Below, one piece after another: positions 235-63,660 of a stretch of DNA of 64,000 nucleotides; the stretch's first letter is position 1; each line of letters opens with the position of its first letter. Where the stretch lies: positions 1 to 64,000 of the forward strand of contig NZ_JAGDYL010000001.1 in the NCBI RefSeq assembly GCF_017565705.1. Reading direction: 5' to 3'. A program made the translations under genes and the position numbers. The notes beneath the pieces were generated by a model. That model was not told the DNA's origin, searched no databases, and worked only from the letters and a program-made list of their open reading frames with translations. The DNA is from Leucobacter ruminantium (GTDB taxonomy: Bacteria > Actinomycetota > Actinomycetes > Actinomycetales > Microbacteriaceae).

Positions 235-3200
235 TCAGCCTGTGAGCCGGGCTGCCGCCTCTCTCCAGATCCGTTCGAGCTCGGCGAGGCTGTGCGCCTC
301 CCCGCCGCGCAGCTCCACACCCTCGGCCACGTAGAACAACGCGACGTCGATGCGCTCGGGGTCGACGCCCGCCCACTGCGCGTAGGCATGGCGGTAGAGG
401 TCGAGCTGGAAGAAGCGTTTCTCGCGCTCGGCATCGGTGCGGGGCGATCGGCCCGCCTTCCAGTCGACCACCTCGAAGCGCGCATCGTCGCCCGAGCCCG
501 AGCGGTAGACGGCGTCGAGCTTGCACACGAGGGTGCGGCCGGCGAACGGCAGGGTGACCTCCTGCTCCACGGCGATCGGCCTGAGGCCGGCCCATCGCGA
601 CCGCTCGAACACGTCGATGAGCGGTTCGAGCTCCCGTTCGACGTCGAACTCCGCGCGCCCGGGGTCCCACTCCTCGGGGTCGAAGCCGAACAGCGGAAGC
701 GCTGTACCGAGCGCCGTGGTGGCCCTGCGCTCGACCCACTCGTGGAAGCGGTTGCCGATACGCGTGCGCCGGAACGGGCGCTGCGGAACGGGGCGAAGTC
801 TGCGCCGCTCGGCCGCGCCGGGATCCTCGACGAACTCGTGGAAGGCGGAGGCCGTGATGCGCTCGGGCAGCCGCACGGCCGCTCCTTCGCCGCGCTCGGC
901 CGCCGCGCGCTCGGCGAGCAGCAGCCGCACGGTCTCGTCGACGGCCGCGCGCGGCTGCGCCTCGTCGGCTGCGAGCTCGGCTCGGAGCGCGGCGGCGGCT
1001 CGCAGCACGGGCTCCGTGCGCGCTCCGAGCGGATCGAGCGGCCAGGTCTCGGTCAGCTCGGCCGCCCCTCCTGGGTCGGTGTCGTACGCGCTCGCGACGG
1101 GCAGGTCCGAGATGACGCCGTGCTCCTGCAGTTCGAGCAGGTAGGGCGACGGCTGCCGGGGCCTCGACTGCCCGCCCCAGAACGACCCGCTCAGCAGGAG
1201 ACGACCGGCCGAGCGCGTGATCGCGACGTAGGCGAGTCTGCGCTCCTCCTCGGCATAGCGCTCCTTCGACTCGGCCTGGTAGTCGGCGATCCGGTCCTTC
1301 AGCTCCTTCTGGGTCGAGGCGAGCCGCCAGAGCAGCTGCGGACGCGCCGGGGCATCGCCGCGCAGTTCGTCGGGCAGCTGTCCCTTGCGCAGCCATCCGA
1401 CGCCGCGCCTCGGCGCGGCGGGAAACTCCCCCTCGACGAGTCTCGGGATCGCTACGATGTCCCACTCGAGCCCCTTCGAGCCGTGCGCAGTGATGAGCTG
1501 CACGGTGCCGGGGGCGGGCGCGGCGACGTGCTCGTCCACCTCGTCGGCCTCGATCGCCCGTTCGATCCACTCGAGCAGCGAGGGCAGCGTGCCGCGGTCG
1601 TCGACGGCGAGGTAACCGGCGACGAGTTCGCCGAAGACGTCGAGGTTTGCGAGCGCGGCGGCCCCGCCACCGTGATCCCTCGCCTCGTTCGCCTCGAGTT
1701 CGATGTCCAGGCGCAGGGCGTGCACGGCCGCGGAGATGAGCTCGCCGATGTCTCCGCCGACGCTCTGTCTCAGGTTCGCCAGCATCCGGCCGGCCTCGCG
1801 CAGGCGCGCGATTCCGGTCTCGCTGATCCCGGTGAGGGCGCGGTGCGAGGGATCCCTGATCGTCGCGATCTGGTCGAGCGCGTCGATGAGCGTGAACTGC
1901 CGATCCGGGTCGGGGAGCACGCTGTCGGCCTCGCGGTCGGCCTCGCTGAGGCGCTGCTGGCCGACGTCGCGCGAGGAGAACCACCGTGCGGCGTCTCGGA
2001 GGCCCGCCAGGTCGGCGACGCCGATGCGGAAGCGTGGGCCCGCGAGCAGTCTGATGAGGTCTCCGCCGGCGTCGGCGTACCAGACGCAGCGCAGCGCGCT
2101 CACGACGTCGGTGACCTCCGGGGTGCTGAGCAGACCGCCCAGGCCGATGATGCGGTTGGGAACGCCGACCGCTGAGAGCGCCGCGGCGAAGGCGGGCATG
2201 TGGCGCCGGTTGCGGAAGATCACCGCGGCGCTCGGCGGTTCGCCGTGTTCGGCGAGGTGTGCCGCACGCGCGTCGGCGACCCAGCGGGCGAGCTGCTCCC
2301 GCTCCTCGTGCACGCTCTCCGGGAAGAGCCACTCGACGCTGCCTGCGACCGCGGCGGGACTCGGCGCCAGCCGCGGCACGGAGATCGGCGAGTCGGCGGC
2401 GAGCGGCGCGGACACGGCCGCGGCCGCATCGAGCACCGTGCGCGGATTCCTCCAGCTCGTCGACAGCGTGAGCGTGGCGGCGGCCTCGCGCTCCCCTGCG
2501 GGCCCGGCCGCGCGCCCGCGGAAATCGGCGTGGAAGGACTGCAGGCCCGCGGCCGAGGCGCCGCGCCAGCCGTAGATGGACTGGTGGGGGTCGCCGACCG
2601 CCATCACGGGCGACCCCGCGAAGATCCGCGAGAGCAGCCGGGTCTGCCCGACCGAGGTGTCCTGCACCTCGTCGAGCAGCACGGCCGCGTGGCGGCGCCG
2701 CAGCACGGCGACCGCGTCCGGGGATCCCTCGAGCGTGCGCGTCGCGAGCGCGAGCTGATCGGAGAACTCGATGAGCCCGCGACGCTGCTTGGCGGCCGCG
2801 AACTCTCGCGCGAGTCTCGTGAGCAGGGGCGTCTCCGCGACGTTCGCTACGGCCTTCGCCACGTCGGCGTAGTTCTTCCCGTCGGCGCCTCCGACGGTGT
2901 CTTTCTCGTTGTAAGGGAGCTCGATGACCCGCGCGAACTCGCCGACGATCTGCTCGACCCGATCGAACGAGGTCAGGTTGTCCGCGACCGCGTGGTCGAT
3001 CGCGAGCACGTGCCGCACGAGCTCGGGCGTGCGGAGCGAACTCGTCACGAGGTCGGGGTCGTCGCTGGAGAGGATCGTCTCGCGCGCGACGCGCCAGGCG
3101 GTGGCCTCATCGATGACGACGGCTCCCGGCGGGATGCCCGCAGCGACCCCGAACTCCTGCAGCACGCCGGAGGCGAAGGCGTTGTAGGTGCTGACCTCCG

Positions 3201-3618
3201 GCAGGTCGAGGCCGTCGCCCAGCAGCCGCGCCAGCTCATGAGCGCGCTCGGACTCGCGGGCCGAGAGTCGGCCGAGCTCGGCAGCGTCTCCCAGCCGTGC
3301 GCTGAAGTTCTCGAGGCGGGTGGTGATCCGCTCGCGCAGCTCGCCCGCAGCCTTCCTGGTGAAGGTGAGGCCGAGCACCCGGTCGGGTTCTACCAGGCCG
3401 TTGGCGACGAGCCAGACGACGCGGTTCGCCATCGTCTCGGTCTTGCCGCTGCCCGCGCCGGCTATGACGAGCGCGCTGCCCGCGAGCGGGTGCTCGATCA
3501 CCGCGCGCTGCTCCGCCGTCGGCAGGAGCGGCGGTCTCTCCGGGTCGGCGAGCAGCTCCGCGATGCGATCGGCGGTGAACACCGGCGCGGATCCCGCCTG
3601 GTTCGTGCTCGCCATCAT
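235..3618 (-). CDS. adnB: AdnB-like UvrD-family helicase with C-terminal RecB-like nuclease
   Basis: Lead-motor subunit of the actinobacterial AdnAB double-strand-break resection machine (about 1127 aa; mycobacterial AdnB is about 1100). Seen: Walker A GAGSGKT at residues 54-60, motif Ia region GLTFTRKAAGELRERI, Walker B LLDEVQD at 314-320, GDPHQSIYGWRGA, TAHGSKGLEWD, and near the C-terminus a RecB-type nuclease core VVDWKAG followed by FFQLDLYRHAY. The ATG overlaps the adnA stop as ATGA; a second ATG follows directly at 3615. The overlap indicates translational coupling with adnA, fitting a heterodimer. The helicase and nuclease motifs look intact. AdnB naming follows motif quality and gene order as in mycobacteria. 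Confidence 0.9.
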   Translation of the reverse strand: MMASTNQAGSAPVFTADRIAELLADPERPPLLPTAEQRAVIEHPLAGSALVIAGAGSGKTETMANRVVWLVANGLVEPDRVLGLTFTRKAAGELRERITTRLENFSARLGDAAELGRLSARESERAHELARLLGDGLDLPEVSTYNAFASGVLQEFGVAAGIPPGAVVIDEATAWRVARETILSSDDPDLVTSSLRTPELVRHVLAIDHAVADNLTSFDRVEQIVGEFARVIELPYNEKDTVGGADGKNYADVAKAVANVAETPLLTRLAREFAAAKQRRGLIEFSDQLALATRTLEGSPDAVAVLRRRHAAVLLDEVQDTSVGQTRLLSRIFAGSPVMAVGDPHQSIYGWRGASAAGLQSFHADFRGRAAGPAGEREAAATLTLSTSWRNPRTVLDAAAAVSAPLAADSPISVPRLAPSPAAVAGSVEWLFPESVHEEREQLARWVADARAAHLAEHGEPPSAAVIFRNRRHMPAFAAALSAVGVPNRIIGLGGLLSTPEVTDVVSALRCVWYADAGGDLIRLLAGPRFRIGVADLAGLRDAARWFSSRDVGQQRLSEADREADSVLPDPDRQFTLIDALDQIATIRDPSHRALTGISETGIARLREAGRMLANLRQSVGGDIGELISAAVHALRLDIELEANEARDHGGGAAALANLDVFGELVAGYLAVDDRGTLPSLLEWIERAIEADEVDEHVAAPAPGTVQLITAHGSKGLEWDIVAIPRLVEGEFPAAPRRGVGWLRKGQLPDELRGDAPARPQLLWRLASTQKELKDRIADYQAESKERYAEEERRLAYVAITRSAGRLLLSGSFWGGQSRPRQPSPYLLELQEHGVISDLPVASAYDTDPGGAAELTETWPLDPLGARTEPVLRAAAALRAELAADEAQPRAAVDETVRLLLAERAAAERGEGAAVRLPERITASAFHEFVEDPGAAERRRLRPVPQRPFRRTRIGNRFHEWVERRATTALGTALPLFGFDPEEWDPGRAEFDVERELEPLIDVFERSRWAGLRPIAVEQEVTLPFAGRTLVCKLDAVYRSGSGDDARFEVVDWKAGRSPRTDAEREKRFFQLDLYRHAYAQWAGVDPERIDVALFYVAEGVELRGGEAHSLAELERIWREAAARLTG

Positions 3619-6600
3619 GCGCGGCTCACCGCCTCGATGATGTGGAGTCTGCAATTGCCCGGCTGATGCGGGTCGGAGCAGTGGTGCTCGATGCGGGCGG
3701 TGAAGGCGCCGGCCGCCATGATCTCGGCCGCGGCGAGCACGCGCTGCACGAGTTCGGCACGCCCTTCCTCGGAGAGCGGCTGCTGGACTCGCTCGATGAA
3801 ACCCGCGCCCTTCGCGGCGTCGGGATGCACGTAGAGCAGCCGTGCGCCGCCGCTGCGCACGGCGCCCGGGCCGGGCTCCCCCGTGTGGACCGAAGCGGCC
3901 TCGGAGCCGGGCTCTTCCGCGCCGCCCGGCCCGGCACCGGAGCCGGCCTCGGAGCCGAGCACGGCTTCGGACTCGTGCCCGGTCGCAGAGGAGTCGATGG
4001 CGGAGGCACCGAGGTCGAACGCACCGAGCATCACCCCGAGCTGATAGGCCTGCAGCTGAGCGTGGCGCTCGGCCTCCGGTTTCGACGGCGGCGTGGCGCC
4101 GGTCTTGAGATCGAGCACGGTGATCTCCGCCCCCGTCGGAGTCTCGCGCAGTTCGAGCCGATCGGCCTTGCCGCGCAGCTCAGCCGGCCCAAGAGGGATC
4201 GCGAAGCCCGACTCGCGCCCGATGAGGCGTCGGTCGGACGCGTCGAATTCGCGCAGGTAGTCGGCGAGGCCCCGGGCCATCGCCGCCGCGGTCGATTTCG
4301 CGCGCTCCGACTCCCACTCGGCGTCGAAGGGCAGTTTGCCCCACTCGCTCGTGATGGCCTCGAGCAGCTCCTCGGGGTCGTGCCCCTCCGCGGTCTCGAG
4401 CGCGTGATGCACGAGCGTTCCGAGGCTGGCCTGCACGCTGCCGCTGCTCCCCCCGAGCGCCGTCACCGCCCAGTCGAGAGGACAGCGCTCGGCGGCCTCG
4501 AGTTGGGAGGGGCTGACCGGGATCCTCCGCTCGCCGTCTCCCTCCCCCGCACGGCCGATCGGGGCGTAGAGCGGGGCCTCCGTGCTCGGCGGCAGCACGC
4601 CGTACCACTCGTCGGGGTGCGCGCCGGGCACGCCCGCGCGCACGAGTTCGGAGAGCGACACCAGCGCCTCGCCGTCCGACGGATCGGCGACGACCCTGCG
4701 ACGCAACGCAGCGACGGCCCCGCGCAGGGTGAGCCGTGAACTCGGCAGTCCGTCGCGCAGGTGCTCGCGACCGAAGCCGAAGAAGGGGCTGGGGTGGTGA
4801 TCCTCGTCTGCGATCGCCACCACCAGCAGTTCCTCGCGCGCCCGCGCGCAGGCCTGCGCGAAGAGCCGCAACTCGTCGTGGATCGTGTCCTTGCGCGACG
4901 GGGCGGTCGCCTCGCCGCCCCGCAACCAGCGTTCGAGAGCGACGGTGCCGAGCAGGGATCCGCGGGAACGCGTGTTCGGCCAGACCCCGTCTTCGGGACC
5001 GATGATCGCGACGAACCCGAACTCCCTGCCGATCGCGCCCTGCGGCGTGGTCACGGTGACCGCGGCGCGCTCGCCTCGCTGCGCCAGCGTGTCCTCGGGA
5101 ACCGTGTTCTCGAGCAGATCGTCGAGCAGTTCGGAGACGGGCTGCTCGCTGGCCTGCTCCTCGTGCCGCTGCAGCGCGAAGAAGAGGCCGAGCGCGGCGT
5201 CGAGGGATCGGTTCGCCTCGTCCGAACGGGCCCCGCGGCCCGCGAGAGCCTCATCCTGCCACCTATCGGCGAGCCGCGTGCCGTCCCAGATCGCCCAGAG
5301 CACTTCGCGGGGGGTGCCCCCGGCCTCGCGTACCCGATCTCCCGCCGCCGCGATGAGGCCGAGGCGACGCAGAGCCCTGCCCCCGGCGCTGTCCACGGCC
5401 GGTTCGGCCCCGGGGAACGCGAACGCATCGAGCACCACCTCGTCGGTCGCCCTCGGGTCCCTCTCCTCGTCGCGCGCCGCGCGGCGCTCCCGCATGAGGA
5501 GCGCGCCGCGGAGCCGCCGCACCGCGACAGGGTCGAGCCCGCCGACCGGGCCGCCGAGCAGGTGGAGCACGCCCTCCGCGTCGAGTCGGGCGATGTCGAG
5601 GGCGTGCTGCAGCAGCCCCACGAGATCGCGCACGATCCGATGCTCGCGCAGCACGATGCCGCCGGCGACGACCCCCGTGGGCACCTGGTGCGAGGCGAGA
5701 CCGCGCGAGATGCGCGCCGCCTCGGACCGCGAGCGGCAGAGCACCGCCATTCCACCCCAGTCGAGTGGTTCGCCGCCCTCGAGCCCGAGCCTGCGCGAGC
5801 GCATGCGGTGGGCCACGATCCCGAGCTGTTCGGCAGGCGAAGACGCCCGCGCGAAATCTATGCGCCCTGCGGCATCCCCGGACGCCGCGGAGCGCTGCGC
5901 ACCTGCGCCGGCGGCGCCGACGCGGGCCGTGAGCCCGCGCACCAGCTCGCGGATCTCCCGCCCGTGTCGGTGCACCGTGCCGAGCACTGCAGCCTGCTCG
6001 GGCTCCGCACCCGCTACGCCGCCCGTCACTCCCCCTCCGCCGACTCCCCCGCGCCTCGCGAGCTCTGAGGTGAGGGCCGTGAGCATGCGGGTCCGCTCGC
6101 CGTGGAAGGCCGCTGTCGCCACGTCCGGGTCGCCGAAGACCCAGACGGCGCTGCCCGCAGCGGCGCAGGCGGCGAGCAGCGCGAGCTGCCCCTCGCCGAG
6201 TTCCTGGGCGTCGTCGACGAGCAGCAGGCGCGGTGGCTCTGCCCGGCCTGCGCGCAGCTCGCCCGCCGCGGCCCGCAGCAGCGCACTCGAGCTCAGCTCT
6301 TCCGGCCTCTCGACTCCGAGACGGCGATCGACCGCACCGATGATCGCGAGCGCCTCGCGCCAACGGGCGATCAGCTCATCGGCCGGGGCGTCGGTCCGCG
6401 CGTCGAGCGCGGCCCGGCCCCGCAGTCGCGCGAGCTCGTCGCCCAACGAGCCGGTGTGGAGGTCGAAGTCGTCGATCACGCGCCAGAACTCGCGCAGCTC
6501 CGCCCTGAACGCCGGACTGCGCAGCACCTCGTCGACGAGCACGGCGGAGGTCCCATCAGCCGCACGCTCCGCAAGACGATCCTCGATGACGGCGGCGATC

Positions 6601-7289: not shown

Positions 7290-10025
7290 ATGACCCAGCG
7301 CACCGACGAGCACCGACCCGCACGTCAGCGGAGGCGTCGCCTGCGGCGAGCGCTGCTCGGCGTGCTCGCCGGTCTCGTGGGCCTCGCGGTCGTCGTCGCG
7401 GGCATCGGCGCGTGGGCGGTGACGCGGTCGTTCCCGCAGCTCGACGGCCGAATCGACGCTGCGGGCATCGACTCGCGGGTCGATGTGCAGCGAGATGCCC
7501 GGGGCATCCCGACCATCACCGCCGACTCCAGCGCCGACCTCTTCTTCGTGCAGGGCTTCGTGCACGCGCAGGATCGCTTCTGGGAGATGGACTTCCGGCG
7601 CCACCTCACGAGCGGTAGGCTCTCCGAGCTGTTCGGCGAGTCGCAGCGCGACACCGACGTGTTCCTCCGCACGCTCGGCTGGCACCGGGTCGCCGAGCAG
7701 GAGGTCGAAGCGCTTCCAGAGGAGGTGCGCGGTTACTACGAGGCCTACGCCGAAGGGGTGAACGCCTACCTCGCCGACCGCAGCGGCGGTCGGATCTCGT
7801 TGGAGTACACCGTGCTCGGCATGCAGAACCCCGACTACGAACCCGAGCCGTGGACTCCGGCCGACTCCGTGGCGTGGTTCAAGGCGATGGCGTGGGATCT
7901 GCGCACGAACATCGAGGACGAGACGGCGCGGGCTCTCGAGAGCCGTTCGCTCTCCCCCGAACGGCTCGCCGAGCTGTATCCGGGCTACCCCTTCGACGAG
8001 CACCCGGTGATCCTCGCGGACGACCGGGCCGGCGGGGCGGTGATCGCGGCCTCCGCCGGCGCCCCCGCGGTGGAGGAGGCCGGGTCCGGTGGAGAGGGAC
8101 TCGCCGAACCGGGCGCATCGGCCTCCGACCCGGGCGGCTCCGCCTCCCCGCAGTCCGAATCGGCGCAGTCCGCGCCCGCCGACGCCTCGGCGCCTGCCGC
8201 CGAATCCGTACTCGGCAGGGTCGACGCGCTCATCTCCTCTCAGAGCGAGGGTGTGGGATCGAACTCCTGGGTGGTGTCGGGCGAGTTCACCGAGAGCGGC
8301 AAGCCGCTCCTCGCCAACGACCCCCACCTCGGCGCGGAGATGCCGTCGGTGTGGACCCAGATGCAGTTGCGATGCCGATCCGTCGACGAGCGGTGCCCGT
8401 TCGACGTCGCGGGTTTCAGCTTCTCGGGCCTGCCCGGCATCGTGATCGGGCACAACCGCGAGGTCGCTTGGGGCTTCACGAACCTCACGACCGACGTCGC
8501 CGACCTCTACGTCGAACGGGTCGAGCCCGACGGCTACTGGAAGGACGGGAAGAAGCACCCCTTCGAGACGCGTAGGGAGACGATCCGCGTCGCGGGCGGG
8601 AGCGACGAGGAGATCGAGGTGCGCTCGACCGCGCACGGGCCGATCGTCTCCGGCCTCACCCCCGACTTCACCGCGATCGCCGAGCACCCCCGCGTGGGCA
8701 CAGCATCCGGCGGGGGCGGGACCGCAGTCGATCCCTCGACCCTGGGAGCGCTGCCGCCCGGCGAGTTCGCGGTGAGTCTGCGGTGGACGGCGCTCGACGC
8801 GGGCAGCACCGCAGAGGCGATCTTCCTCATGAACACGGCATCCGACTACGCGGGATTCCGCGAGGCGGCGTCGAAGTTCGACGTCCCCGCGCAGAATCTG
8901 ATCTACGCGGACCTCGACGGAAACATCGGGTATCAGGCTCCGGGCAGGCTCCCCGTGCGCGGGGCGGGCGACGGCTGGCTGCCCCAGCCGGGCTGGGACA
9001 GCGCATACGATTGGCGCGGCTTCGTCCCCTTCGACGAGCAACCGCGAACGCTCAATCCCGCATCGGGATACATCGTCACCGCGAACAACGCGATCGTCGA
9101 CGACGCCTACCCCTACCTCCTCAGCAGAGACTGGGACTACGGCTACCGCGCGGCGCGCATCGTCGAGCTGTTGGAGGAGCGCATCGCCGCGGGCCCGGTC
9201 GACTCGGCTGATATGACGGCCATCCAGCTCGACAACCGATTTCCTGCGGCCGCGGAGTTGCAGGCGGCCTACGCCAGCGTCTTGGATCCGACCGGGAGCC
9301 ACCCGGAAGGCGTGGGCGGCACCGACTCCGTCACGGCCTCCGCACTGCGGATGCTGCAGGAGTGGGACGGGCAGAACGATGCGGATTCGGCGGCTGCGGC
9401 CTATGCGAACGTGCTGTGGGAGCACGTCACCGCCGAGATGGTGCAGGCCATCGGCGGCACGGACGCGAACGGCACCGCTGCGATCCCCCGTGACGATCAG
9501 GGGCGCTTCGCGCTCTTCTTCGCCCGGCAGCTCGATGACCCCGAGAGCGTCTGGTTCGGCGACGACCGCGAAGCCCTGCTGCTCTCGGCGGCCGAGGCGG
9601 CATCGCACGAACTCGTCGAGGCGCAGGGATCGGACCCGTCGCGCTGGAACTGGGGCGAGCTGCACGCGCTCGAACTGACGAACGGCACCTTCGGCACGAG
9701 CGGCATCGCGCCGATCGAGGCGCTCTTCAACCGAGGACCCTATCCCGTCGGCGGCGGCTCGAGCGTCGTCAACGCGACGGGCTGGACGCTCGGGGAGGGC
9801 TACGAGACCGTCACCGTACCGTCGATGCGCATGGTGATCGACCTCGACGATTGGGATGCCTCGACCTGGCAGAACCTCTCGGGCCAGAGTGGACACGCGT
9901 TCCACCCGAACTACGCCGATCAGGCCGAGAACTGGGCCTCCGGCGAGACCTACGCCTGGCCCTACTCCAGGAAGGCCGTCGAGGCGGCCACGACGCATCG
10001 CCTGGTGATCGAACCCTCGACGTAG
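7290..10025 (+). CDS. Penicillin acylase family (Ntn-hydrolase) protein, membrane-anchored
   Basis: 911 aa, start chosen at the ATG preceded by GCGAGGAGG. A basic N-terminus is followed by one hydrophobic segment (about residues 24-46), so the enzyme is exported or anchored. The autocatalytic cleavage site is clear: GVGSNSW with nucleophile Ser324, followed by the family motif LLANDPHLG. The N-terminal (alpha-chain) part has FVHAQDRFWEMDFRR; the beta chain has GHNREVAWGFTN. A Ser/Ala/Pro-rich stretch just before Ser324 looks like the spacer peptide removed during maturation, longer and less complex than usual. Family members hydrolyse amides such as beta-lactam side chains or acyl-homoserine lactones. 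The substrate cannot be told from sequence. Confidence 0.92.
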   Translation: MTQRTDEHRPARQRRRRLRRALLGVLAGLVGLAVVVAGIGAWAVTRSFPQLDGRIDAAGIDSRVDVQRDARGIPTITADSSADLFFVQGFVHAQDRFWEMDFRRHLTSGRLSELFGESQRDTDVFLRTLGWHRVAEQEVEALPEEVRGYYEAYAEGVNAYLADRSGGRISLEYTVLGMQNPDYEPEPWTPADSVAWFKAMAWDLRTNIEDETARALESRSLSPERLAELYPGYPFDEHPVILADDRAGGAVIAASAGAPAVEEAGSGGEGLAEPGASASDPGGSASPQSESAQSAPADASAPAAESVLGRVDALISSQSEGVGSNSWVVSGEFTESGKPLLANDPHLGAEMPSVWTQMQLRCRSVDERCPFDVAGFSFSGLPGIVIGHNREVAWGFTNLTTDVADLYVERVEPDGYWKDGKKHPFETRRETIRVAGGSDEEIEVRSTAHGPIVSGLTPDFTAIAEHPRVGTASGGGGTAVDPSTLGALPPGEFAVSLRWTALDAGSTAEAIFLMNTASDYAGFREAASKFDVPAQNLIYADLDGNIGYQAPGRLPVRGAGDGWLPQPGWDSAYDWRGFVPFDEQPRTLNPASGYIVTANNAIVDDAYPYLLSRDWDYGYRAARIVELLEERIAAGPVDSADMTAIQLDNRFPAAAELQAAYASVLDPTGSHPEGVGGTDSVTASALRMLQEWDGQNDADSAAAAYANVLWEHVTAEMVQAIGGTDANGTAAIPRDDQGRFALFFARQLDDPESVWFGDDREALLLSAAEAASHELVEAQGSDPSRWNWGELHALELTNGTFGTSGIAPIEALFNRGPYPVGGGSSVVNATGWTLGEGYETVTVPSMRMVIDLDDWDASTWQNLSGQSGHAFHPNYADQAENWASGETYAWPYSRKAVEAATTHRLVIEPST

Positions 10026-16485: not shown

Positions 16486-16583
16486 TCGGCGGTTCCTCGC
16501 CGCGCCCGCTCGCCGTACCGGGCTCGCCGTACCGCCGGGCGCGGGATCCCTCGCCGCCGGGCGCCGCGATCGCGCACGCCCGG

Positions 16584-44894: not shown

Positions 44895-45323
44895 CTACTC
44901 CGCAGCCGATCCCTCCCCCGGGATCTCCTGCAACGTCGGCCGCGCGAGGATCGCGGCGAAGAAGCCCGCGAGCGCCGCCGCGACGAGCGCGAAGCCGAAC
45001 TGCCACGGCCCGATCCCGAGTTGCAGGCACCCGGTCCCGGCTGCGAAGAGCAGCACGTGGATCGTGAGCGCCGAACCCCGCACCCAGCTCGCACGCGTGC
45101 GCAGCGCTCCGACGAGCGTGATCACGAGCCACAGCAGAGACAGCGCCGCCATCGCGATGAGGCTCACGTTCTGCACGAGGATGACGCTCGCGCCCGAGCC
45201 GAAGGTCGCGAGCACCGCGATCAGCAGCACCCAGGCGAGCAGCAGCGCTTCGAGCACGAGCAGCACGTCGAGCACCAGCCAGGCCACGGCCGATCGTGCG
45301 TTTCCCGAGGGTGACGGGGTCAT
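44895..45323 (-). CDS. Four-helix integral membrane protein, unknown function
   Basis: 142 aa with four hydrophobic segments (LDVLLVLEALLLAWVLLIAVLA, VSLIAMAALSLLWLVITLVGAL, ALTIHVLLFAAGTGCLQLGI, FGFALVAAALAGFFAAILA). Acidic C-terminus. No family recognised. Convergent with bcp with a 9-nt gap. Confidence 0.75.
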   Translation of the reverse strand: MTPSPSGNARSAVAWLVLDVLLVLEALLLAWVLLIAVLATFGSGASVILVQNVSLIAMAALSLLWLVITLVGALRTRASWVRGSALTIHVLLFAAGTGCLQLGIGPWQFGFALVAAALAGFFAAILARPTLQEIPGEGSAAE

Positions 45324-45830: not shown

Positions 45831-48787
<2,957 letters not shown>

Positions 48788-51419: not shown

Positions 51420-51457
51420 AGCGAGGGCCCCCGGTGCGAGGGCCCCGGTGCGAGGGA

Positions 51458-52477: not shown

Positions 52478-52549
52478 GCCGATCCCTCTCTGGTCTGGGC
52501 GTCCGCGCGGCGGTCGCTCCGGCGCCGCCGGGCGGCGGGTATTGATCGT

Positions 52550-53431: not shown

Positions 53432-56400
53432 ATGACGAATCCCGCGCTGCGCATCGAGTTCCCGGCCGATCTCCCCGTCTCGCAGATGCGCGACGAGATC
53501 TCCGACGCCATCCGCGACCACCAGGTCGTGATCGTCGCGGGCGAGACCGGTTCGGGCAAGACGACGCAGCTGCCGAAGATCGCCCTCGCGCTCGGCCGCG
53601 AGCGCATCGCGCACACCCAGCCGAGGCGCATCGCGGCGCGCACGATCGCGGAGCGCGTCGCCGAGGAGCTGGGAAGCGAGCTCGGGGGGCTCGTGGGCTA
53701 CCAGGTGCGCTTCACCGACAGGGTGTCGGCCGAGACTCGCATCCGCCTCATGACCGACGGCATCCTGCTCAACGCGATCCACCGCGACCGCGACCTCACC
53801 GCCTACGACACGATCATCATCGACGAGGCGCACGAGCGATCCCTCAACATCGACTTCCTGCTCGGCTACTTGAAGACCCTGCTCCCCCGCCGCCCTGATC
53901 TCAAGGTGATCATCACCTCGGCGACGATCGACCCCGAGTCGTTCGCGAGGCACTTCGCCTCGTCCGACGGAGAGCCGGCCCCCGTGATCGAGGTGTCGGG
54001 GCGCACCTACCCCGTCGAGATCCGCTACCGGCCGCTGGTGGAGGAGGTCACGACACCAGACCCGAAAGGCGGGGCCGACCGCGTGCGCAAGGTCGAGCGC
54101 GACCTCTTCGACGCGATCGGCGACGCGGTGCAGGAGCTGGGGCGCGAAGAGCCGGGTGACGTGCTCGTGTTCCTGAGCGGCGAGGCCGAGATCCGCGACG
54201 CGGCCGATGCGCTGAACGGTCGGTTCGCGAGGGATCGAGCCAGGCCGCTCGAGATCCTCCCCCTCTACGGCCGGCTCTCCGCGGCCGAGCAGCACCGGGT
54301 CTTCGAGCCCAAGCGCGGGGCGAACGCCGCCGCCCGCCGCGTCGTGCTCGCCACGAATGTCGCGGAGACGTCGCTGACGGTGCCCGGCATCCGCTACGTC
54401 GTCGACGCGGGCACGGCGCGCATCTCCCGCTACTCGGCGCGCAGCAAGGTGCAGCGGCTGCCCATCGAGCCGGTCTCGCAGGCGAGCGCCAACCAGCGCT
54501 CCGGCCGCTCGGGCCGCACGAGCCCCGGCATCGCGATCCGGCTCTACTCCGAGGAGGATTTCGAGAACCGCCCCGAGTTCACCGAGCCCGAGATCCGCCG
54601 CACGGGCCTCGCCTCCGTCATCCTGCAGATGCTCGCGCTCGGCCTCGGCGACATCGCGCGCTTCCCCTTCCTCACGCCTCCCGACCAGCGAGGGATCGCC
54701 GACGGTCTGGGGCTGCTGACCGAGCTCGGCGCGGTGGAGACCGCACCCGCCTCCGGGTCGGGCCGCGGTTCCGGCGGATCCCGGCGCGGGAAGGCCGCCC
54801 ATCGCATCACGAAGATCGGCCGCGAGCTCGCCCGCCTGCCGATCGAGCCGCGCTTCGCGCGCATGGTGATCGAGGCCAGGCGCCACGACGCGGTGCCGGA
54901 TGTACTCGCGATCGTGGCCGGCCTCACCGTCCAGGACGTGCGCGAGCGGCCGAGCGAGAAGCGCGCGCAGGCCGATCAGCTGCACGCCCGCTTCGCCGAT
55001 CCCCAGGGCGATCTCATGACCCTGCTGAACCTTTGGAACTACCTGCAGGAGCAGCAGCGGGAGCTGTCGTCGAGCGCGTTCCGCAGGCTCTGCAAGGCCG
55101 AGTTCCTGAACTTCCTGCGGGTGCGCGAGTGGATGGACCTCTTCCGGCAGCTGTCGCGGATCGCCGGAGTGAAGCGTTCAGCGGGCTCCGCCGCCGCCCT
55201 GGCCCCCTCAACGCCTGCCGCGACCTCCGCCCTCCCCGAGCAGGGGTCGCAATCGGGGGTATCAGGGCGTCGGAAACCCCCGAACGCGACCCCTCGCGCC
55301 CAGGGGTCCGGGGCAGGCCAGGGATCCGCCTCGGGGGCGGAGTCCGGTTCGTCGGACGCGATCCACCGCTCGATCCTGGCGGGCCTGCTGTCGCAGCTCG
55401 GCGTGCGCGACGATCGGCAGGACCGCAGCGCCCCGTCCCGCGGGCGGAACGTCGCGGGCGCCGTCAAGCGCAAGCCCGCCCAGGAGTACCTCGGTTCGCG
55501 CGGCACCCGCTTCGTGCTCTACCCCGGCTCGGTGCTCGCGAAGAAGCCGCCCGAGGTCGTCATGAGCGTCGAGCTCGTCGAGACGTCGCGGCTCTTCGCA
55601 CGCTCCAACGCGGTCATCGACCCGGCCTGGGCCGAGGAGCTCGCGGGGCCGCTCGCGAAGCGCCAGATCTCCGAGCCGCACTGGGAGAAGAAGCAGGGCG
55701 CTGCCGTGGCCGTCGAGCGCGTCACGCTGTACGGCGTGCCGATCGTGACAGGCCGACGCGTGCAGCTGTCGCGATTCGACCCCGAGCAGGCGCGCGAGCT
55801 GTTCATCAGGCACGGGCTCGTCGAGGGCGAGTGGGAGGTGCCGGCAGGGGGATCCCTCTACGCCTTCGACCGCGCCAACCGGCAGCTGCGCCGAGAGCTC
55901 GAACAGCTCGAGGAGCGCACGCGCCGCCGCGACATCGTCTCCGACGACGAGACCGTGTTCGACTTCTACGACGAGCGGATCCCTCGGCACATCACGACCG
56001 TGCGCGACTTCGAGGGCTGGTGGAAGGAGGCTCAGCGGAAGCAGCCGAAGCTCCTGACCATGCGCCGCGAGGACCTGCTCGAGGACGACGCCGAGCAGGT
56101 GGACGAGAGCGAGTTCCCGCGGCAGTGGCGGCACGGCGACCAGACGCTGCGGCTGAAGTACCGCTTCGATCCGACGGCCGAGGACGACGGCGTGACGGTG
56201 AACGTGCCGCTGCCGCTGCTGCCCCGGCTGGACGGCTCCGATTTCGAGAAGCTCGTGCCCGGCCTGCGCCAGGAGCTCGTGACCGCACTCATCAAGACGC
56301 TGCCGAAGGCGATCCGCAAGCACGTCGTGCCCGCGGCCGACTGGGCGCGCACGCTGCTCGCGACCGTCGAGCCGAAGCTCGACGCGTCCGCGGACGCTCC

Positions 56401-57541
56401 CGCCCTCACGCAGCTGCTCGCGGACGAGATCCGGCGCCGCACGAGCGTCTCGGTCTCCCCCGACGACTTCGATCCCTCGCGGCTGCCCGCGCACCTCACC
56501 CCCACCTTCCGCGTGGTCGACGCCCGCGGGCGCACCCTCGGCAGCGGCAAGGATCTGTCCGAGCTGCAGGCGGCGCACAAGCAGCGGGCCACGCAGGGCG
56601 TCGCCAAGGTCGCGGCGGCCGCGCTCCCGAAGAGCGACCTGGAACGCACCGGCGCCACGACCTGGGACTTCGGCGAGCTGCCGCGCCACGTCGACACGGC
56701 CTACGCGAAGGGCCGCGCGAGCGGCGGCGGGGTCGTGCGCGCCTACCCGGCCATCGTCGACCGGCGCACGAGCGTCGATCTCGTGCTCGTCGCCGACGAG
56801 GCCGAGCAGGCCAGGCTCTCCCGGCGAGGGATCCGCCGTCTGCTCGTCCTGAGCTCGCCCTCGCCCGCGAGCTACGTGCGCGAGCACCTCTCGAACCAGG
56901 AGAAGCTGCTGCTCGGTGCGGGCCCCTACCGCACCCTCGACCTCGCGATCGCCGACGTCTCGCTCGCGGTCGCCGACCGCGCCATCCGCCGCCACGCCCC
57001 CGACGGCCTCGTCTGGTCGGCGGAGGCGTTCGCCGCGATCGCCGACGAGTACGCCCGATCCCTCATCGACGACATCTACGCCGCCATCGCCCTCACCGCT
57101 CGCGCGCTCGACCGGGCGCGGCTCGCGCGCAAGGCCATCGACGGCGCGAAATCCATCCACGTGCTCGGTCAGGTGGCCGATGCGGCGCGGCAGGTGGACG
57201 GGCTCGTCTGGGCCGGCAACGGCGCGGACGGCTTCGTGTCGCGCACGGGCCTCGAACGGCTCGAGCGCGTGCCCGTCTACCTGGAGGCCGTCGAATTGCG
57301 CATGCGGGGTCTCGTCGAGAACCCGGGGCGCGATCGCGCCTGGCAGAACGAGGTCGACCGCGTGCTCGCGATGTTCGCGGAGGCGGGCGGCGAGATCCCG
57401 CTTCCCGTCGACGCGCCCGATCGGCTCGTGCGCGCGAGGTGGCTGATCGAGGAGCTGCGGGTCAGCCTCTTCGCGCAGCGGCTGCGCACGGCCGAGCCGG
57501 TCTCGGTGCAGCGCATCCAGAAGGCGCTGCGCGAGGGGTAG
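53432..57541 (+). CDS. hrpA: ATP-dependent RNA helicase HrpA with low-complexity insertion
   Basis: 1369 aa DEAH-box protein. GETGSGKTTQLP, QPRRIAARTIAERVA, IIDEAHERSLNIDF, TSATID, FLSGEAEIRDAADAL, ATNVAETSLTVPGIRYVVD and QRSGRSGRTSPG are visible, and the C-terminal half is the DUF3418 domain of HrpA. At about residues 585-680 the helicase core is interrupted by a Ser/Gly/Ala/Pro-rich stretch that contains the palindrome at 55242-55294. ATG follows GATAAT by 9 nt. Probably resolves stalled or collided ribosomes (family knowledge). Confidence 0.93.
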   Translation: MTNPALRIEFPADLPVSQMRDEISDAIRDHQVVIVAGETGSGKTTQLPKIALALGRERIAHTQPRRIAARTIAERVAEELGSELGGLVGYQVRFTDRVSAETRIRLMTDGILLNAIHRDRDLTAYDTIIIDEAHERSLNIDFLLGYLKTLLPRRPDLKVIITSATIDPESFARHFASSDGEPAPVIEVSGRTYPVEIRYRPLVEEVTTPDPKGGADRVRKVERDLFDAIGDAVQELGREEPGDVLVFLSGEAEIRDAADALNGRFARDRARPLEILPLYGRLSAAEQHRVFEPKRGANAAARRVVLATNVAETSLTVPGIRYVVDAGTARISRYSARSKVQRLPIEPVSQASANQRSGRSGRTSPGIAIRLYSEEDFENRPEFTEPEIRRTGLASVILQMLALGLGDIARFPFLTPPDQRGIADGLGLLTELGAVETAPASGSGRGSGGSRRGKAAHRITKIGRELARLPIEPRFARMVIEARRHDAVPDVLAIVAGLTVQDVRERPSEKRAQADQLHARFADPQGDLMTLLNLWNYLQEQQRELSSSAFRRLCKAEFLNFLRVREWMDLFRQLSRIAGVKRSAGSAAALAPSTPAATSALPEQGSQSGVSGRRKPPNATPRAQGSGAGQGSASGAESGSSDAIHRSILAGLLSQLGVRDDRQDRSAPSRGRNVAGAVKRKPAQEYLGSRGTRFVLYPGSVLAKKPPEVVMSVELVETSRLFARSNAVIDPAWAEELAGPLAKRQISEPHWEKKQGAAVAVERVTLYGVPIVTGRRVQLSRFDPEQARELFIRHGLVEGEWEVPAGGSLYAFDRANRQLRRELEQLEERTRRRDIVSDDETVFDFYDERIPRHITTVRDFEGWWKEAQRKQPKLLTMRREDLLEDDAEQVDESEFPRQWRHGDQTLRLKYRFDPTAEDDGVTVNVPLPLLPRLDGSDFEKLVPGLRQELVTALIKTLPKAIRKHVVPAADWARTLLATVEPKLDASADAPALTQLLADEIRRRTSVSVSPDDFDPSRLPAHLTPTFRVVDARGRTLGSGKDLSELQAAHKQRATQGVAKVAAAALPKSDLERTGATTWDFGELPRHVDTAYAKGRASGGGVVRAYPAIVDRRTSVDLVLVADEAEQARLSRRGIRRLLVLSSPSPASYVREHLSNQEKLLLGAGPYRTLDLAIADVSLAVADRAIRRHAPDGLVWSAEAFAAIADEYARSLIDDIYAAIALTARALDRARLARKAIDGAKSIHVLGQVADAARQVDGLVWAGNGADGFVSRTGLERLERVPVYLEAVELRMRGLVENPGRDRAWQNEVDRVLAMFAEAGGEIPLPVDAPDRLVRARWLIEELRVSLFAQRLRTAEPVSVQRIQKALREG
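55242..55294. repeat. REP-like palindrome inserted in the hrpA coding sequence, copy 2
   Basis: Arms AGGGGTCGCAATCGGGGGT (55242-55260) and ACCCCCGAACGCGACCCCT (55276-55294) are complementary except for two positions. The loop is 15 nt. It lies in frame within a variable, low-complexity part of hrpA and resembles the element at 51353-51419. Confidence 0.78.
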
Positions 57542-57571
57542 GCGGGATCCCTCACCGCCTCCCGCAGGGAC

Positions 57572-58807
57572 TCAGCGCGACGCCGCCCACTCCGGGTCGA
57601 CCGCGATCGCGTGGACGTGCAGGTCGCGCTTCGGGAAGTCGATGTCGTCGACCTCGATCTCGACGCGGCGCTCCCCCGTCACCGTGTCGATGCCGAAGAT
57701 CGCGAGGCCCTCGAGCCTGTCGTACGAGGGCCCCTTGCTCGGGTTGACGAACTCCTCATCGGCCGCGACGCCGTAGACGCGTCCGCCGGCCTGCGCCAGC
57801 ACGCCCTCGCCGATGCCGACGACCGGGTCGTAATCATCGACGAAACCGCTGAGCTCCGCGGCGAGCTCGACCTCCGCGACCGGGCGATCATCGCCGACCA
57901 CGGGCCGCTCCGCCGCATCGGGCAGCCGCACCGACCACAGGCGCCAGTCGGCCGCCCAGTACAGCCGTCCCTCGCGCACGAACGGCGTCTCGGGGTAGGC
58001 CTGCCCGACGGAATCGGGGTAGCGCAGCTCGACCTCGCCCATCTCCCCCGTCTCGCGGTCCCACACGCGCAGCGCCTGCGCCGAGGGCGACCCGTCGGAG
58101 ATCTCCCCGAGCCCATAGGCGCGGTCGGCGTCGCACGCGAGCGCGGTGACGCCGTCGAAGAGGCCGAGCCCCGCGAAGTCCTCGGTCTCGGGCGTGACCG
58201 TCTCGACGCCGTTCGGGCCGACCATGACCGCCTGCCCGTCGCACCCGGCCAGCGCCGGCACGGCGTAGTCCGTGTCGGCCCGGGAGAGCGTCCCCGAGGC
58301 GGCATCCACGAACGCGATCTCGGGACGCTGCGGCGAAGACATCATCACCGCGAAACCCGTGTCGGTCGCGGTCCGGCTCCACTCGCTGCGACCCTCGTGC
58401 TCTCCGGGGAGAGGGATCTCCGTGAGACCGTGCTCGTGCAGCACGTACTCGTGGCCGGGGTCCCCCGTGCTGAGCCCGTTGGAGGACCAGACCAACCGCG
58501 AGTTCTCGAACCCCCGCTCATCGAGACGCACCGAGCGCGTCTCGCCGGCCTCGTTCACGAGCACCAGGTACGAGATGTCGCGGGCGTCGAGCCGCAGCGC
58601 GACGACCGCGTCCTCGATCCCGAACCCCTCGGAGATGGCGGGCGCCTTGAGGTACCTGACGAGCGGCCCCAGGCCGAAGATCGCCCCCAGCACGAGCGCG
58701 ACCACGAGCCACGCGGTCAAGGCGGCCCGACCGCCTTTGCGCGCGTGCGATTCCCGGGCGCGCGCCGATCCCTCGCCCTGCCGACGAGGCTTTCCCCGCT
58801 GTCCCAT
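57572..58807 (-). CDS. Membrane-anchored beta-propeller-like protein, unknown function
   Basis: 411 aa. Basic N-terminus, one transmembrane helix (LTAWLVVALVLGAIFGLGPLV, about residues 30-50), then a repetitive beta-rich domain with WSS, GRLYWAADWRLWSVRL and GVLAQAGGRVYGVAADEEF. Likely an extracytoplasmic propeller. No catalytic motif. Ends about 7 nt from the general stress protein stop on the same strand. Confidence 0.78.
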   Translation of the reverse strand: MGQRGKPRRQGEGSARARESHARKGGRAALTAWLVVALVLGAIFGLGPLVRYLKAPAISEGFGIEDAVVALRLDARDISYLVLVNEAGETRSVRLDERGFENSRLVWSSNGLSTGDPGHEYVLHEHGLTEIPLPGEHEGRSEWSRTATDTGFAVMMSSPQRPEIAFVDAASGTLSRADTDYAVPALAGCDGQAVMVGPNGVETVTPETEDFAGLGLFDGVTALACDADRAYGLGEISDGSPSAQALRVWDRETGEMGEVELRYPDSVGQAYPETPFVREGRLYWAADWRLWSVRLPDAAERPVVGDDRPVAEVELAAELSGFVDDYDPVVGIGEGVLAQAGGRVYGVAADEEFVNPSKGPSYDRLEGLAIFGIDTVTGERRVEIEVDDIDFPKRDLHVHAIAVDPEWAASR

Positions 58808-60516: not shown

Positions 60517-60679
60517 CTCCCCAGTCTCCCGCAGTCGGCTGACGGCTCTCTGACCATGGAGCCCGCAGCGGCGCGTGTTCGGCGAGGGATCGTGCCCACG
60601 AGGCCCGTCCCCCGGATCCCTCGCCGGAAAGCGCCGGCCGAGCGCCCCGGGGCACGCCCAGGACCGGTAGCGTAGGGGT

Positions 60680-61954
60680 GTGAGTACTTCGAGGGTCTTC
60701 GTGGGGCGCCTCGCCGGGCGCGGTGTGTTCGATCCCGTCGGCGATCGGATCGGCAAGGTGCGCGACGTGCTGGTCGTCTATCGCGCGGCCAGCGCACCGC
60801 GCGTCGTCGGCCTCATCGTCGAGATCCCGGGGAAACGCAGAGTGTTCGTGCCGATCGGCCGCGTCACCTCGATCGGATCGGGCCAGGTCATCACGACCGG
60901 TCTCATCAACGTGCGCCGCTTCGAGCAGCGCGGCGGCGAGACGAGGATGATCGCCGAGATGATCGGACGCGAGGTGCTGGTGGCCGGCGAGCGCCCGGGT
61001 GCGCCCGTCACCGCGAAGATCGAGGATGCCGCGATCGAACGTGCGAAGAACGGCGAATGGCTCGTGTCCGAGCTGTTCGTGCGACTGCCCAAGCCGTCGG
61101 CTCCGTTCGCGCGCGCCGAGTCGCGCATCGTGCGCTGGTCCGAGGTGCGACTGCCGAGCTCGAAGGTGGGAGCGCAGTCGGCGGAGCTGCTCATCCAGAC
61201 GATGGTCGACCTCAAACCGGCCGACCTCGCCGAGGCTCTGCTCGAGCTGCCGCAGGCCCGCATGCTCGAGGTCATCGACGAGCTGCCCGACGAGCGCGTC
61301 GCCGATGCTCTCGAGGAGATGAGCGAAGCCGACCAGCTGGCGCTGCTCGCCCAGCTCCCCGCCGACCGCACGGCGGACGTGCTCGACCGCATGGAGCCCG
61401 ACGACGCGGCCGACCTGATCTCGGCCCTCCCGACCGCGAAGGGCGAGGAGCTGCTCGACCTGATGGAGCCCGAGGAGGCGGAGGATGTGCGCCGCCTGCT
61501 CGAATACGACAGCGACACCGCCGGCGGCCTCATGAGCCCCGCCCCGATCGTGCTCTCGGGCGAGTCGAGCGTCGCCGAGGGGCTCGCCATGATCCGGCGG
61601 AGGGAGATCCCTCCCGCGATGGCCTCGGCGGTATACGTCACGAACCCGCCCTACGAGACGCCGACGGGCGAGTACATCGGCATGGCGCACTTCCAGCGCA
61701 TGCTGCGCTTCCCTCCCCACGAGCGTCTGTCGTCGCTGCTCGACACCGAGATCGAGCCCGTGCCGGTCGACGCGAGCGCGGCCGAGGTGTCGCGACGGCT
61801 GGCGAGCTACGACATGGTGGCGATGCCCGTGGTCGACGATCAGCAGCGACTCGTCGGAGTCGTCACGGTCGACGACGTGCTCGACCATCTGCTTCCCGAC
61901 GACTGGCGCCACGCCGACGACGAGGACGCCGACGACCGCGCGGGGAGGGCCTGA
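60680..61954 (+). CDS. MgtE N-terminal domain / CBS protein without membrane channel
   Basis: 424 aa. Two PRC-barrel-like segments (GVFDPVGDRIGKVRDVLVVY, MIGREVLVAGERPG), then an MgtE-N helical repeat domain (LKPADLAEALLELPQARMLEVIDELPDERVADALEEM) and a CBS pair (YDMVAMPVVDDQQRLVGVVTVDDVLDHLLP). No transmembrane helices, so it lacks the Mg2+ channel and is a soluble regulator-like protein. GTG is 6 nt after TAGCGT. First gene of a tight operon with DUF1003 and mrp. Confidence 0.9.
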   Translation: MSTSRVFVGRLAGRGVFDPVGDRIGKVRDVLVVYRAASAPRVVGLIVEIPGKRRVFVPIGRVTSIGSGQVITTGLINVRRFEQRGGETRMIAEMIGREVLVAGERPGAPVTAKIEDAAIERAKNGEWLVSELFVRLPKPSAPFARAESRIVRWSEVRLPSSKVGAQSAELLIQTMVDLKPADLAEALLELPQARMLEVIDELPDERVADALEEMSEADQLALLAQLPADRTADVLDRMEPDDAADLISALPTAKGEELLDLMEPEEAEDVRRLLEYDSDTAGGLMSPAPIVLSGESSVAEGLAMIRRREIPPAMASAVYVTNPPYETPTGEYIGMAHFQRMLRFPPHERLSSLLDTEIEPVPVDASAAEVSRRLASYDMVAMPVVDDQQRLVGVVTVDDVLDHLLPDDWRHADDEDADDRAGRA

Positions 61955-62505: not shown

Positions 62506-63640
62506 GGCGGCGGTCCTGGCCGCGCTCGATCGGGTGAGGGATCCCGAGATCCTGCGTCCGATCACGGAGCTCGGCATGGTGCGCGCCGTCGAGGTGGACG
62601 CCGACGGGCGGGCGACCGTGTCGATCCTGCTCACGATCGCGGGGTGCCCGGCGGCGCGACGCATCGAGGCCGACGTGCTCGAGGCGGCGTCGCAGGCGCC
62701 CGGCGTCTCCGAGGCGCGCGTGGAGGTCGGCGTCATGACCCCCGAGGAGCGGCGCGACTTCGTCGAGCGTGTGCGCGGCGACCGGGGCTCGCGCCCCCGG
62801 CAGTTCGGCCCCGAGTCGCTGACACGGGTGATCGCCGTGACGAGCGGCAAGGGCGGTGTCGGCAAGTCCTCGCTCACCGCGGGGCTCGCCGTCGCGCTCG
62901 CCGAGCGGGGTCTCGCGGTCGGCCTCGTCGACGCCGACGTGTTCGGATTCTCGATCCCCGGCCTCCTCGGGCTGAGCCGCGACGGCGTCACCGAGCAGCC
63001 CACGCGAGTCGACGACATGATGCTGCCGCCCGTGGCGCACGGTGTGAAGGCGATCTCGATCGGCATGCTCCTGGGCGACGCCGACCCACGCACGACCGCC
63101 GTGTCGTGGCGCGGTCCGATGCTGCATCGCACGATCGAGCAGTTCCTGCGCGACGTCTGGTTCGGCGACCTCGACGTACTGCTGCTCGACCTGCCCCCGG
63201 GAACGGGCGACGTCGCGATCACCGTGGGGCAGCTGCTGCCGCAGGCCGAGGTCATCGTCGTGACCACCCCGCAGGAGGCCGCGGCCGATGTCGCGGTGCG
63301 CAGCGCGCTCGTCGCCAGGCAGACGGGTCAGCGGGTCATCGGCGTGATCGAGAACATGGCCGGCCTGCTGCAGCCCCACGGAAGCGTGCTCGACCTCTTC
63401 GGCACGGGCGGCGGTGCGCTCGTCGCCGAGCGGCTCGGCGACGCCGAGCACGGCGAGGTGCCGCTGCTCGGCAGCGTGCCCCTCTCCCCCGTCTTCCGCG
63501 CAGGGGGCGATACGGGTGAGCCGGCGGTGCTGCGGCATCCCGACGATCCGGCAGCGGCCGAGGTGCTGCGCATCGCCGAGCGCCTGATGGCCGGCGGCCG
63601 CGGTCTCGCGGGGCGATCGCTGGGTCTCAGCGTCCGCTGA
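62489..63640 (+). CDS. mrp: Mrp/NBP35 family iron-sulfur carrier ATPase
   Basis: 383 aa; start overlaps the DUF1003 gene by 17 nt. An N-terminal MIP18-like domain (DRVRDPEILRPITELGMV, LLTIAGCPAARRIEADV) leads to a deviant P-loop GKGGVGKSSLTAGLAVAL, DADVFGFSIPGLLG and LLDLPPGTGDVAITV. Scaffold proteins carry a CXXC after IENM; here that segment reads IENMAGLLQPHG with no cysteines. Many actinobacterial Mrp proteins share this absence. Confidence 0.92.
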   Translation: MPTAPEAAVLAALDRVRDPEILRPITELGMVRAVEVDADGRATVSILLTIAGCPAARRIEADVLEAASQAPGVSEARVEVGVMTPEERRDFVERVRGDRGSRPRQFGPESLTRVIAVTSGKGGVGKSSLTAGLAVALAERGLAVGLVDADVFGFSIPGLLGLSRDGVTEQPTRVDDMMLPPVAHGVKAISIGMLLGDADPRTTAVSWRGPMLHRTIEQFLRDVWFGDLDVLLLDLPPGTGDVAITVGQLLPQAEVIVVTTPQEAAADVAVRSALVARQTGQRVIGVIENMAGLLQPHGSVLDLFGTGGGALVAERLGDAEHGEVPLLGSVPLSPVFRAGGDTGEPAVLRHPDDPAAAEVLRIAERLMAGGRGLAGRSLGLSVR

Positions 63641-63660
63641 TCGGCCGCGAGGGATCCGCG

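Follow-up and report, generated by a model that had tools for sequence, protein, structure and literature searches.

Overused Short Words in Bacterial Genomes

Uptake signal sequences of the Pasteurellaceae occur at about 1 per kb, a density reckoned with an approximate genome size, and the words named KOPS/AIMS are strand-polar. In the portions of the literature cited here, transformation dependent on short uptake sequences is said to be peculiar to two Gram-negative groups, Neisseria and the Pasteurellaceae (PMC3630211), and uptake sequences are reported with one favoured orientation in reading frames (van Passel 2008, PMC2346458). In cyanobacteria, according to the sections cited, each genome with highly over-used words has at least one putative fitting methyltransferase, the saturation of HIP words was modelled near one site per kb, and GGGATCCC is the top word of two Synechococcus (Elhai 2015, PMC4390886). 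Here, we describe an asymmetric octamer, GAGGGATC (complement GATCCCTC), found in a window of 64,000 nucleotides, which is positions 1–64000 of contig C13 in the genome of Leucobacter ruminantium (3,305,448 bp, 69 contigs, 99.4% complete), a member of the Microbacteriaceae; what is new here is that this word seems to be one dialect in a system of words spread across the family. We know of no earlier uptake-sequence-type code in a Gram-positive family. Among the matches listed from the open-licence literature, which is smaller than all that is in print, there was no report of GAGGGATC as a genomic motif nor of uptake sequences in the Microbacteriaceae.

Abundance of the Octamer and Its Maintenance on DNA

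The original prediction had counted about 35 copies of GAGGGATC and about 31 of its complement in the window, and we found 36 and 31, with a copy present at 14 of the 14 positions that it gave as examples. Its estimate of about two copies from base composition was also right, while Markov models of order 1, 2, and 3 give 5.4, 6.0, and 7.4 copies on both strands, so that the observed count remains far from expectation (67 vs. 6.0 at order 2), and the word is rank 1 among all 8-mers of the window under the order-2 model. The enrichment extends beyond the window: the claimed genome-scale over-representation proved larger than stated, with 1,282 copies of GAGGGATC and 1,266 of GATCCCTC, or 2,548 in the whole genome, of which 386 are on contig C13 (437,666 bp, 882 per Mb), and with 966 copies per Mb in the core DNA sampled (330 kb). 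The backwards-read control pattern has 7 copies genome-wide; because it contains TAG and is depleted in its own right, other genomes are the better yardstick. Counts cover 54 genus-level, 398 family-level, and 396 order-level genomes, in draws that overlap and include L. ruminantium, and in which the next-highest counts after 2,548 were 388 (G401), 376 (G164), and 339 (G323), no other genome of these draws exceeding 388. The expected kinship with Microbacteriaceae was borne out, the neighbours being Leucobacter, and the amplification is limited to L. ruminantium among the genomes searched, a point that was absent from the original prediction.

The part played by coding bias was assessed with a synonymous null in which codons for the same amino acid were swapped among sites, which keeps amino acids and codon usage and does not keep codon-pair preference. 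The genic copies of the window number 62 against 4.1 expected from this shuffle, and the coding DNA of C13 holds 306 copies against 17.5 expected, with a maximum of 24 in 40 shuffles. All six frame-orientation classes are used, with 17, 7, 8, 16, 10, and 4 genic copies in the window, 55, 29, 38, 48, 43, and 33 in the 330 kb of sampled core, and, on C13, 69, 30, and 40 in sense and 53, 62, and 36 in antisense, while codon-driven control words sit mainly in one class (0.75 of AGCAGCAG and 0.71 of CGAGCAGC). The earlier claim that selection or drive acts on DNA and not on protein thus stands, both because all six frames are used and because the synonymous null is exceeded, and codon or amino-acid bias for GAGGGATC is ruled out by the shuffle together with the frame test. 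The wider explanation by codon, amino-acid, or mutation bias, or by an assembly artefact, can point to the high GC, to other words such as CGAGCAGC that are abundant for codon reasons, and to a possible codon-pair effect in the milder words of relatives; we consider it scarcely credible given the 17.5 copies that shuffling yields vs. 306, the use of all six frames, the many kinds of base change that build the word, and the low-GC contigs of the same assembly, which lack it. The word is maintained on DNA, throughout the genome, and is confined to L. ruminantium among the genomes searched.

Gain of Copies and Dialect Shift within Leucobacter

Alignments of the window with five Leucobacter genomes covered 21–38 kb each, at an identity of about 80%. 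Where the aligned octamer of a relative is one change away from the word, it is GAGGGATC in L. ruminantium in 39 of 174 cases, the highest gain rate of all 19,892 octamers that have 100 or more aligned neighbours, and the reverse case was seen 1 time. Copies already present in the relatives are kept in 15 of 19 cases, vs. an identity of 25% for octamers generally. The most frequent source of new copies is GCGGGATC (23 of 73), changes at 6 of the 8 word positions contribute, and the codons that overlap the word differ synonymously from those of the relatives at 35% vs. 22–23%, with amino-acid differences of 23% vs. 21–25%. In these alignments, copies evidently arise through point changes, which affect most positions of the word. 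The argument that depletion of the one-off neighbours proves a directed conversion was weakened, given that the 24 neighbours total 407 in L. ruminantium vs. 417 in the relatives, with a single one clearly lower (GCGGGATC, 68 vs. 155), and that the neighbour depletion seen under the Markov model was partly an artefact of that model.

Compared with the relatives, GAGGGATC is the most enriched octamer (319 vs. 31 after scaling), CGGATCCG (28 vs. 134) and GATCCCGC (68 vs. 154) are depleted, and GGATC or GATCC occurs in 17 of the 30 most depleted octamers, counted by eye. Expressed as fold over the synonymous null, GAGGGATC stands at 17.5 in L. ruminantium and at 0.7–4.1 in the five relatives; GCGGGATC at 3.3–3.4 in G421, G323, G401, and G425, 1.9 in G437, and 1.15 in L. 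ruminantium; CGGGATC at 2.6–2.8 in four relatives, 1.5 in G437, and 1.23 in L. ruminantium; and CGGATCCG at 1.4–3.8 in the five relatives and 1.14 in L. ruminantium, where GGATCC overall is at 2.3 fold, partly via GAGGGATCC. The nearest older word, GCGGGATC, has decayed to chance level, and the other genus words have done so only in part. GAGGGATC thus behaves as the dialect of this lineage within a family of words built on a GGAT(C/G) core, a view for which the GGATC words give good support.

Related Words across the Microbacteriaceae

We then compared 71 other Microbacteriaceae loci of 15–21 kb each, together with eight sets from L. ruminantium and its relatives, i.e., 79 sets, all against the synonymous null. 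GGAT/ATCC is the leading tetramer among the top-1 words (23 of 71 loci) and the top-3 words (37 of 71), and it comes second at top-6 (48, behind CGAG with 49), a depth at which codon words become frequent. Of the 22 Leucobacter loci, 21 have GGATCC above the null (349 vs. 157), as do 10 of the 49 loci from other genera (207 vs. 274). Leucobacter sp. OH1287 has, as observed over null, GCGGATCC at 178/19.0, GGATCCGCCC at 40/1.0, and GGATCCACCC at 25/1.0, which together read GGGYGGATCC, while Cryobacterium sinapicolor has ACGGATGC at 38/3.9, Agromyces luteolus ACGGATGCC at 24/1.8, and Herbiconiux ginsengi CGCATCCG at 34/4.4. In whole genomes, GCGGATCC counts 1,745 copies in the 1.9 Mb of OH1287 and 1,552 in the 3.8 Mb of G437, and ACGGATGC, across 398 family genomes, is near strand-symmetric wherever it is abundant, with up to 2,406 copies (G102), with more than 1,700 strand-symmetric copies in each of G025, G102, G212, G029, and G053, and with low counts in the ten Leucobacter of that draw. 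Two species of one genus (g85) have opposite words: in G164, GCGGATCC is at 67/13.7, with frame classes of 8, 12, 13, 11, 11, and 12, and ACGGATGC at 1/6.4, and in G215 GCGGATCC is at 2/5.7 and ACGGATGC at 14/3.6. Other family members thus over-use words with the GGAT(C/G) core, again a point that the original prediction did not contain, and dialects differ between species of a single genus. The GGATC words of Leucobacter, OH1287, and G164 give good support to a family-wide word system, and the GGATG words are probably part of it.

No strong GGAT word was found in the stretches examined of G331, G045, and G035. In G035 (loci L274 and L275), the top DNA-level 10-mer is CCGCGCCTCC (18 vs. 1.1), which lacks the GGAT core, and G331, of genus g45, has 890 copies of ACGGATGC genome-wide and 1 in the coding DNA of the 60 kb examined, most of its congeners in the draw having about 70–165, so that either an uneven distribution or a mixed assembly is at hand. 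Strong locus-specific words, ATCAGCAT/AGGCAGGC in Leucobacter sp. 7(1) (L107) and CCTAACCC/AGGGTTAG in Cryobacterium sp. M96 (L170), are probably local repeats.

Resident and Mobile-Looking DNA

Twenty further stretches of the L. ruminantium genome (386 kb) were sampled. Five of them with a low GC of 0.64–0.66 (L003, L008, L011, L014, and L019) have 1, 0, 1, 0, and 0 copies, i.e., 2 copies in 100 kb, and their scanned proteins include a TrwC relaxase, an MmeI-like enzyme, a prohead protease, a type I restriction enzyme, and glycosyltransferases. A further stretch, L018, has 0 copies in its first 14.0 kb and then 6; its first 6 kb hold iron-transport-type ABC genes, and a DXS gene lies at 11.2–13.1 kb. 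The word is nearly absent from the sampled mobile-looking DNA, although we suggest keeping in mind that the contrast between mobile and core DNA arises partly by selection because six stretches were set aside once their counts had been seen, GC and gene content being the independent signs for setting them apart.

Flank, Strand, Spacing, and Gene Ends

Around the word, a G at position −2 is present in 72% of 319 sites vs. 30% before GAGG generally, and position −1 is at baseline. On C13, 200 copies lie on one strand and 186 on the other (1,282/1,266 over the whole genome, where contig orientation is arbitrary), and neither a consistent strand skew in 22 bins of C13 nor a visible relation to GC skew was found, with contigs unordered and origin and terminus unmapped. 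The copies showed no even spacing (coefficient of variation of the distances 1.27). Per kb of C13, the word has 0.76 copies in genic DNA, 4.07 in convergent gaps, 1.79 in tandem gaps, and 1.04 in divergent gaps, and eleven other octamers reach at most 1.65 in convergent gaps. Inverted plus–minus pairs occupy 7 of 57 convergent gaps vs. 5 of 207 other gaps on C13, where the overlapping palindrome GAGGGATCCCTC occurs 21 times vs. 8.6 if its halves were independent.

Within the window, the word search placed plus-strand copies at 1847–1854, 4193–4200, 5202–5209, 13354–13361, 13754–13761, 16201–16208, 16366–16373, 20377–20384, 20512–20519, 22417–22424, 23078–23085, 24249–24256, 29221–29228, 30099–30106, 30604–30611, 33486–33493, 36011–36018, 37206–37213, 37406–37413, 39414–39421, 43975–43982, 44358–44365, 47520–47527, 51452–51459, 53012–53019, 54229–54236, 54690–54697, 56826–56833, 58411–58418, 62536–62543, and 63649–63656, and minus-strand copies at 1674–1681, 2723–2730, 8730–8737, 11351–11358, 13098–13105, 16545–16552, 20695–20702, 28069–28076, 28461–28468, 34203–34210, 34882–34889, 35708–35715, 40312–40319, 41079–41086, 43743–43750, 44908–44915, 50210–50217, 52481–52488, 53838–53845, 55851–55858, 55978–55985, 56471–56478, 57057–57064, 57546–57553, 58767–58774, and 61606–61613. 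Two inverted pairs join a plus with a minus copy, at 18792–18799 and 18822–18829 and at 60584–60591 and 60615–60622, and three palindromes consist of a plus and an overlapping minus copy: GAGGGATCCCTC at 20427–20438 (halves 20427–20434 and 20431–20438), 34738–34749 (34738–34745 and 34742–34749), and 41193–41204 (41193–41200 and 41197–41204). Elsewhere in the genome, an intergenic array at L010:17789-17905 has one plus copy and then five minus copies, with four steps of exactly 21 bp.

Among the roles that the original prediction had listed, a Chi-like or polar segregation signal does not agree with the 200 vs. 186 copies by strand and the missing tie to GC skew on C13, and the uptake type, to which we return below, would fit best. 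As in Chi and KOPS/AIMS, the word is a GC-rich octamer, and Chi favours the core genome in the part of the source cited (PMC8022716), and those words are strand-polar, which GAGGGATC is not. A Chi-type recombination signal that would protect the resident chromosome or promote its repair has in its favour this GC-rich composition, the density in resident DNA with rarity in mobile DNA, and the reported greater abundance of Chi in the core genome (PMC8022716); with the 200/186 strand balance and words that differ between congeners, we judge it improbable. The strand symmetry, the core restriction, and the palindrome excess would agree with a binding site for a protein of the nucleoid, of segregation, or of defence against invaders, which would label the cell's own DNA internally and have no uptake role. 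To our knowledge, no such protein combines thousands of sites in coding DNA with rapid dialect change, and we regard this explanation as rather unlikely.

Methyltransferases and the Comparison with HIP1

The window has an orphan DNA methyltransferase gene at 31016–31876 on the minus strand (286 aa), a candidate writer of the word that was not supported as such. Its product is the sole PF01555 match of the genome, an RsrI/CcrM-like enzyme of the N6/N4 type, whose orthologues lie close to aroA in about a dozen Leucobacter loci. A specificity switch of this enzyme was not supported since, against 14 orthologues from relatives with other dialects, it has no block of changes; the alignment leaves 5 residues specific to L. 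ruminantium plus one terminal residue, the target-recognition region not being mapped by the tool. Dam-like methylation was rejected, PF02086 being absent from the L. ruminantium genome and present in 11 of 54 genus genomes. PF00145 has one match, a C5 methyltransferase on contig C11, which lies, like the MmeI-like enzyme on C8 and the HsdM on C15, in a word-poor stretch. The methyltransferases found do not visibly account for the word, with PF02384 and the MmeI family outside the genome-wide search. An MmeI-like restriction-modification enzyme is encoded at L008:785-3559, on the minus strand of a word-free stretch.

The likeness to HIP1 suggested by the original prediction is partial: GAGGGATC is asymmetric and no palindrome, and no visibly fitting methyltransferase is among those found. 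Like HIP1 and the alternate HIPs, as far as the cited sections describe them, the word stands at about 1 per kb and replaces another word in a single lineage, and GGGATCCC of Synechococcus has GGGATC in common with the word family; HIPs are palindromic, unlike GAGGGATC, and have a cognate methyltransferase (PMC4390886). In a HIP1-type explanation, a methyltransferase would mark the word or a shorter core (GGATC), and methylation-guided repair would make and keep the copies as a by-product. The findings on methyltransferases and saturation density of Elhai 2015, as cited (PMC4390886), and the syntenic orphan methyltransferase in many Leucobacter speak for it; the word is no palindrome, however, with 21 full palindromes among the 386 copies of C13, the orphan enzyme has no change block, a PF02086 enzyme is missing from the genome, and the other methyltransferases lie in word-poor stretches, within the same limits of search. 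We consider this explanation unlikely, though worth keeping in view.

A Possible Uptake-Sequence Reading

Our best guess, which we hold tentatively and by analogy, is that GAGGGATC may be a self-recognition tag for DNA exchange that works like a DNA uptake sequence, because it is asymmetric, present at about 1/kb, and strand-symmetric, forms inverted pairs at the 3' ends of genes, changes by dialect, and is nearly absent from mobile-looking DNA (compare the cited parts of PMC3630211 and PMC1939737), features that agree less well with HIP1 (PMC4390886) and with Chi (PMC8022716). In such a system, a DNA-binding component of the machinery for uptake or recombination would prefer the word, and fragments bearing it would be taken up or recombined more often; copies arising by chance point mutation would spread, and lost copies would be restored, until a changed binding protein would start a new dialect while the old words decayed.

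As in the Neisseriaceae (Frye et al. 2013, PMC3630211, in the portions cited), there are thousands of copies of an asymmetric word, and related species have dialects with a common short core; the inverted pairs tied to terminators, and the overlapping dyad pairs in one species, are a further likeness. Unlike in the Neisseriaceae, whose dialects are reported there as consistent with the core phylogeny (PMC3630211), the dialects differ inside genera, the family is Gram-positive, and comEC is interrupted in the L. ruminantium isolate. The density of about 1 per kb is like that of the Pasteurellaceae uptake signal sequences, and the word is another one, the reading-frame orientation bias reported for uptake sequences being missing in L. 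ruminantium (PMC2346458, as cited).

All 20 genomes searched have a ComEC domain, which counts for the uptake-sequence reading. Several findings weigh against this reading. ComEC is widespread (10 of 14 control genomes), so that its presence says little. In L. ruminantium, an element with a large serine recombinase interrupts comEC (L238:4615-7934, which is contig C48:15614-18933) on the N-terminal side. The gene begins there near residue 304 of the query fragment, beside the recombinase, and neither the missing part nor ComEA was found on the 17 kb of contig before comEC, so that ComEC-mediated uptake looks impossible at present. Uptake sequences are mostly neither inverted repeats nor downstream of genes in the part of Bakkali 2007 cited (PMC1939737). 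Sense and antisense copies in genes are balanced (122/124 in the 330 kb core, 139/151 on C13), where one favoured orientation is reported for uptake sequences (PMC2346458). The convergent/genic ratio is not unique either, CGGGATCC having 0.89 vs. 0.16 on 7 copies and GAGCGATC (4 copies) and GAGGGGTC (2 copies) reaching similar or higher ratios, gene calls throughout are crude, and the excess of the palindrome GAGGGATCCCTC would also suit a symmetric binder. The dialect shift is incomplete, since TCGGGATC (1.85), CGGGATCC (1.59), and GCGGATCC (2.16, relatives 2.0–3.7) are still above the null in L. ruminantium. Finally, the GGATG words are uneven by frame, with largest shares of 0.41–0.49 in Agromyces and Cryobacterium (CGGATGCC in Agromyces 5, 15, 3, 19, 3, and 31; ACGGATGC in Cryobacterium 17, 1, 0, 4, 9, and 4), and because the null ignores codon pairs, these weaker dialects could be partly codon-pair effects.

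ComEC of G323 (L240) starts at nearly the same residue as in L. ruminantium, with no recombinase identified there, and the ComEC Pfam match of G420 also starts at position 27; judging from these gene starts, comEC may repeatedly serve as an insertion site within Leucobacter.

Implications for the Microbacteriaceae

It is possible, though we rate it as doubtful and less probable than the uptake-type role of GAGGGATC itself, that the Microbacteriaceae use a self-recognition code of the uptake-sequence type, with a conserved GGAT core and with dialects that switch between close species; L. ruminantium would then have moved from GCGGGATC, the word of its genus, to GAGGGATC, and its genome would record a change of receptor specificity. 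The related HIP words belong to cyanobacteria; if an actinobacterial family truly has words that behave alike, this would suggest that such codes arose again, and switches within a genus, if true, would let the comparison of sister species map the protein that reads the word. Whatever the reader protein, the 10-fold rise of one octamer over the genus, together with the loss of its closest older word, is a large change across the whole genome and calls for a cause.

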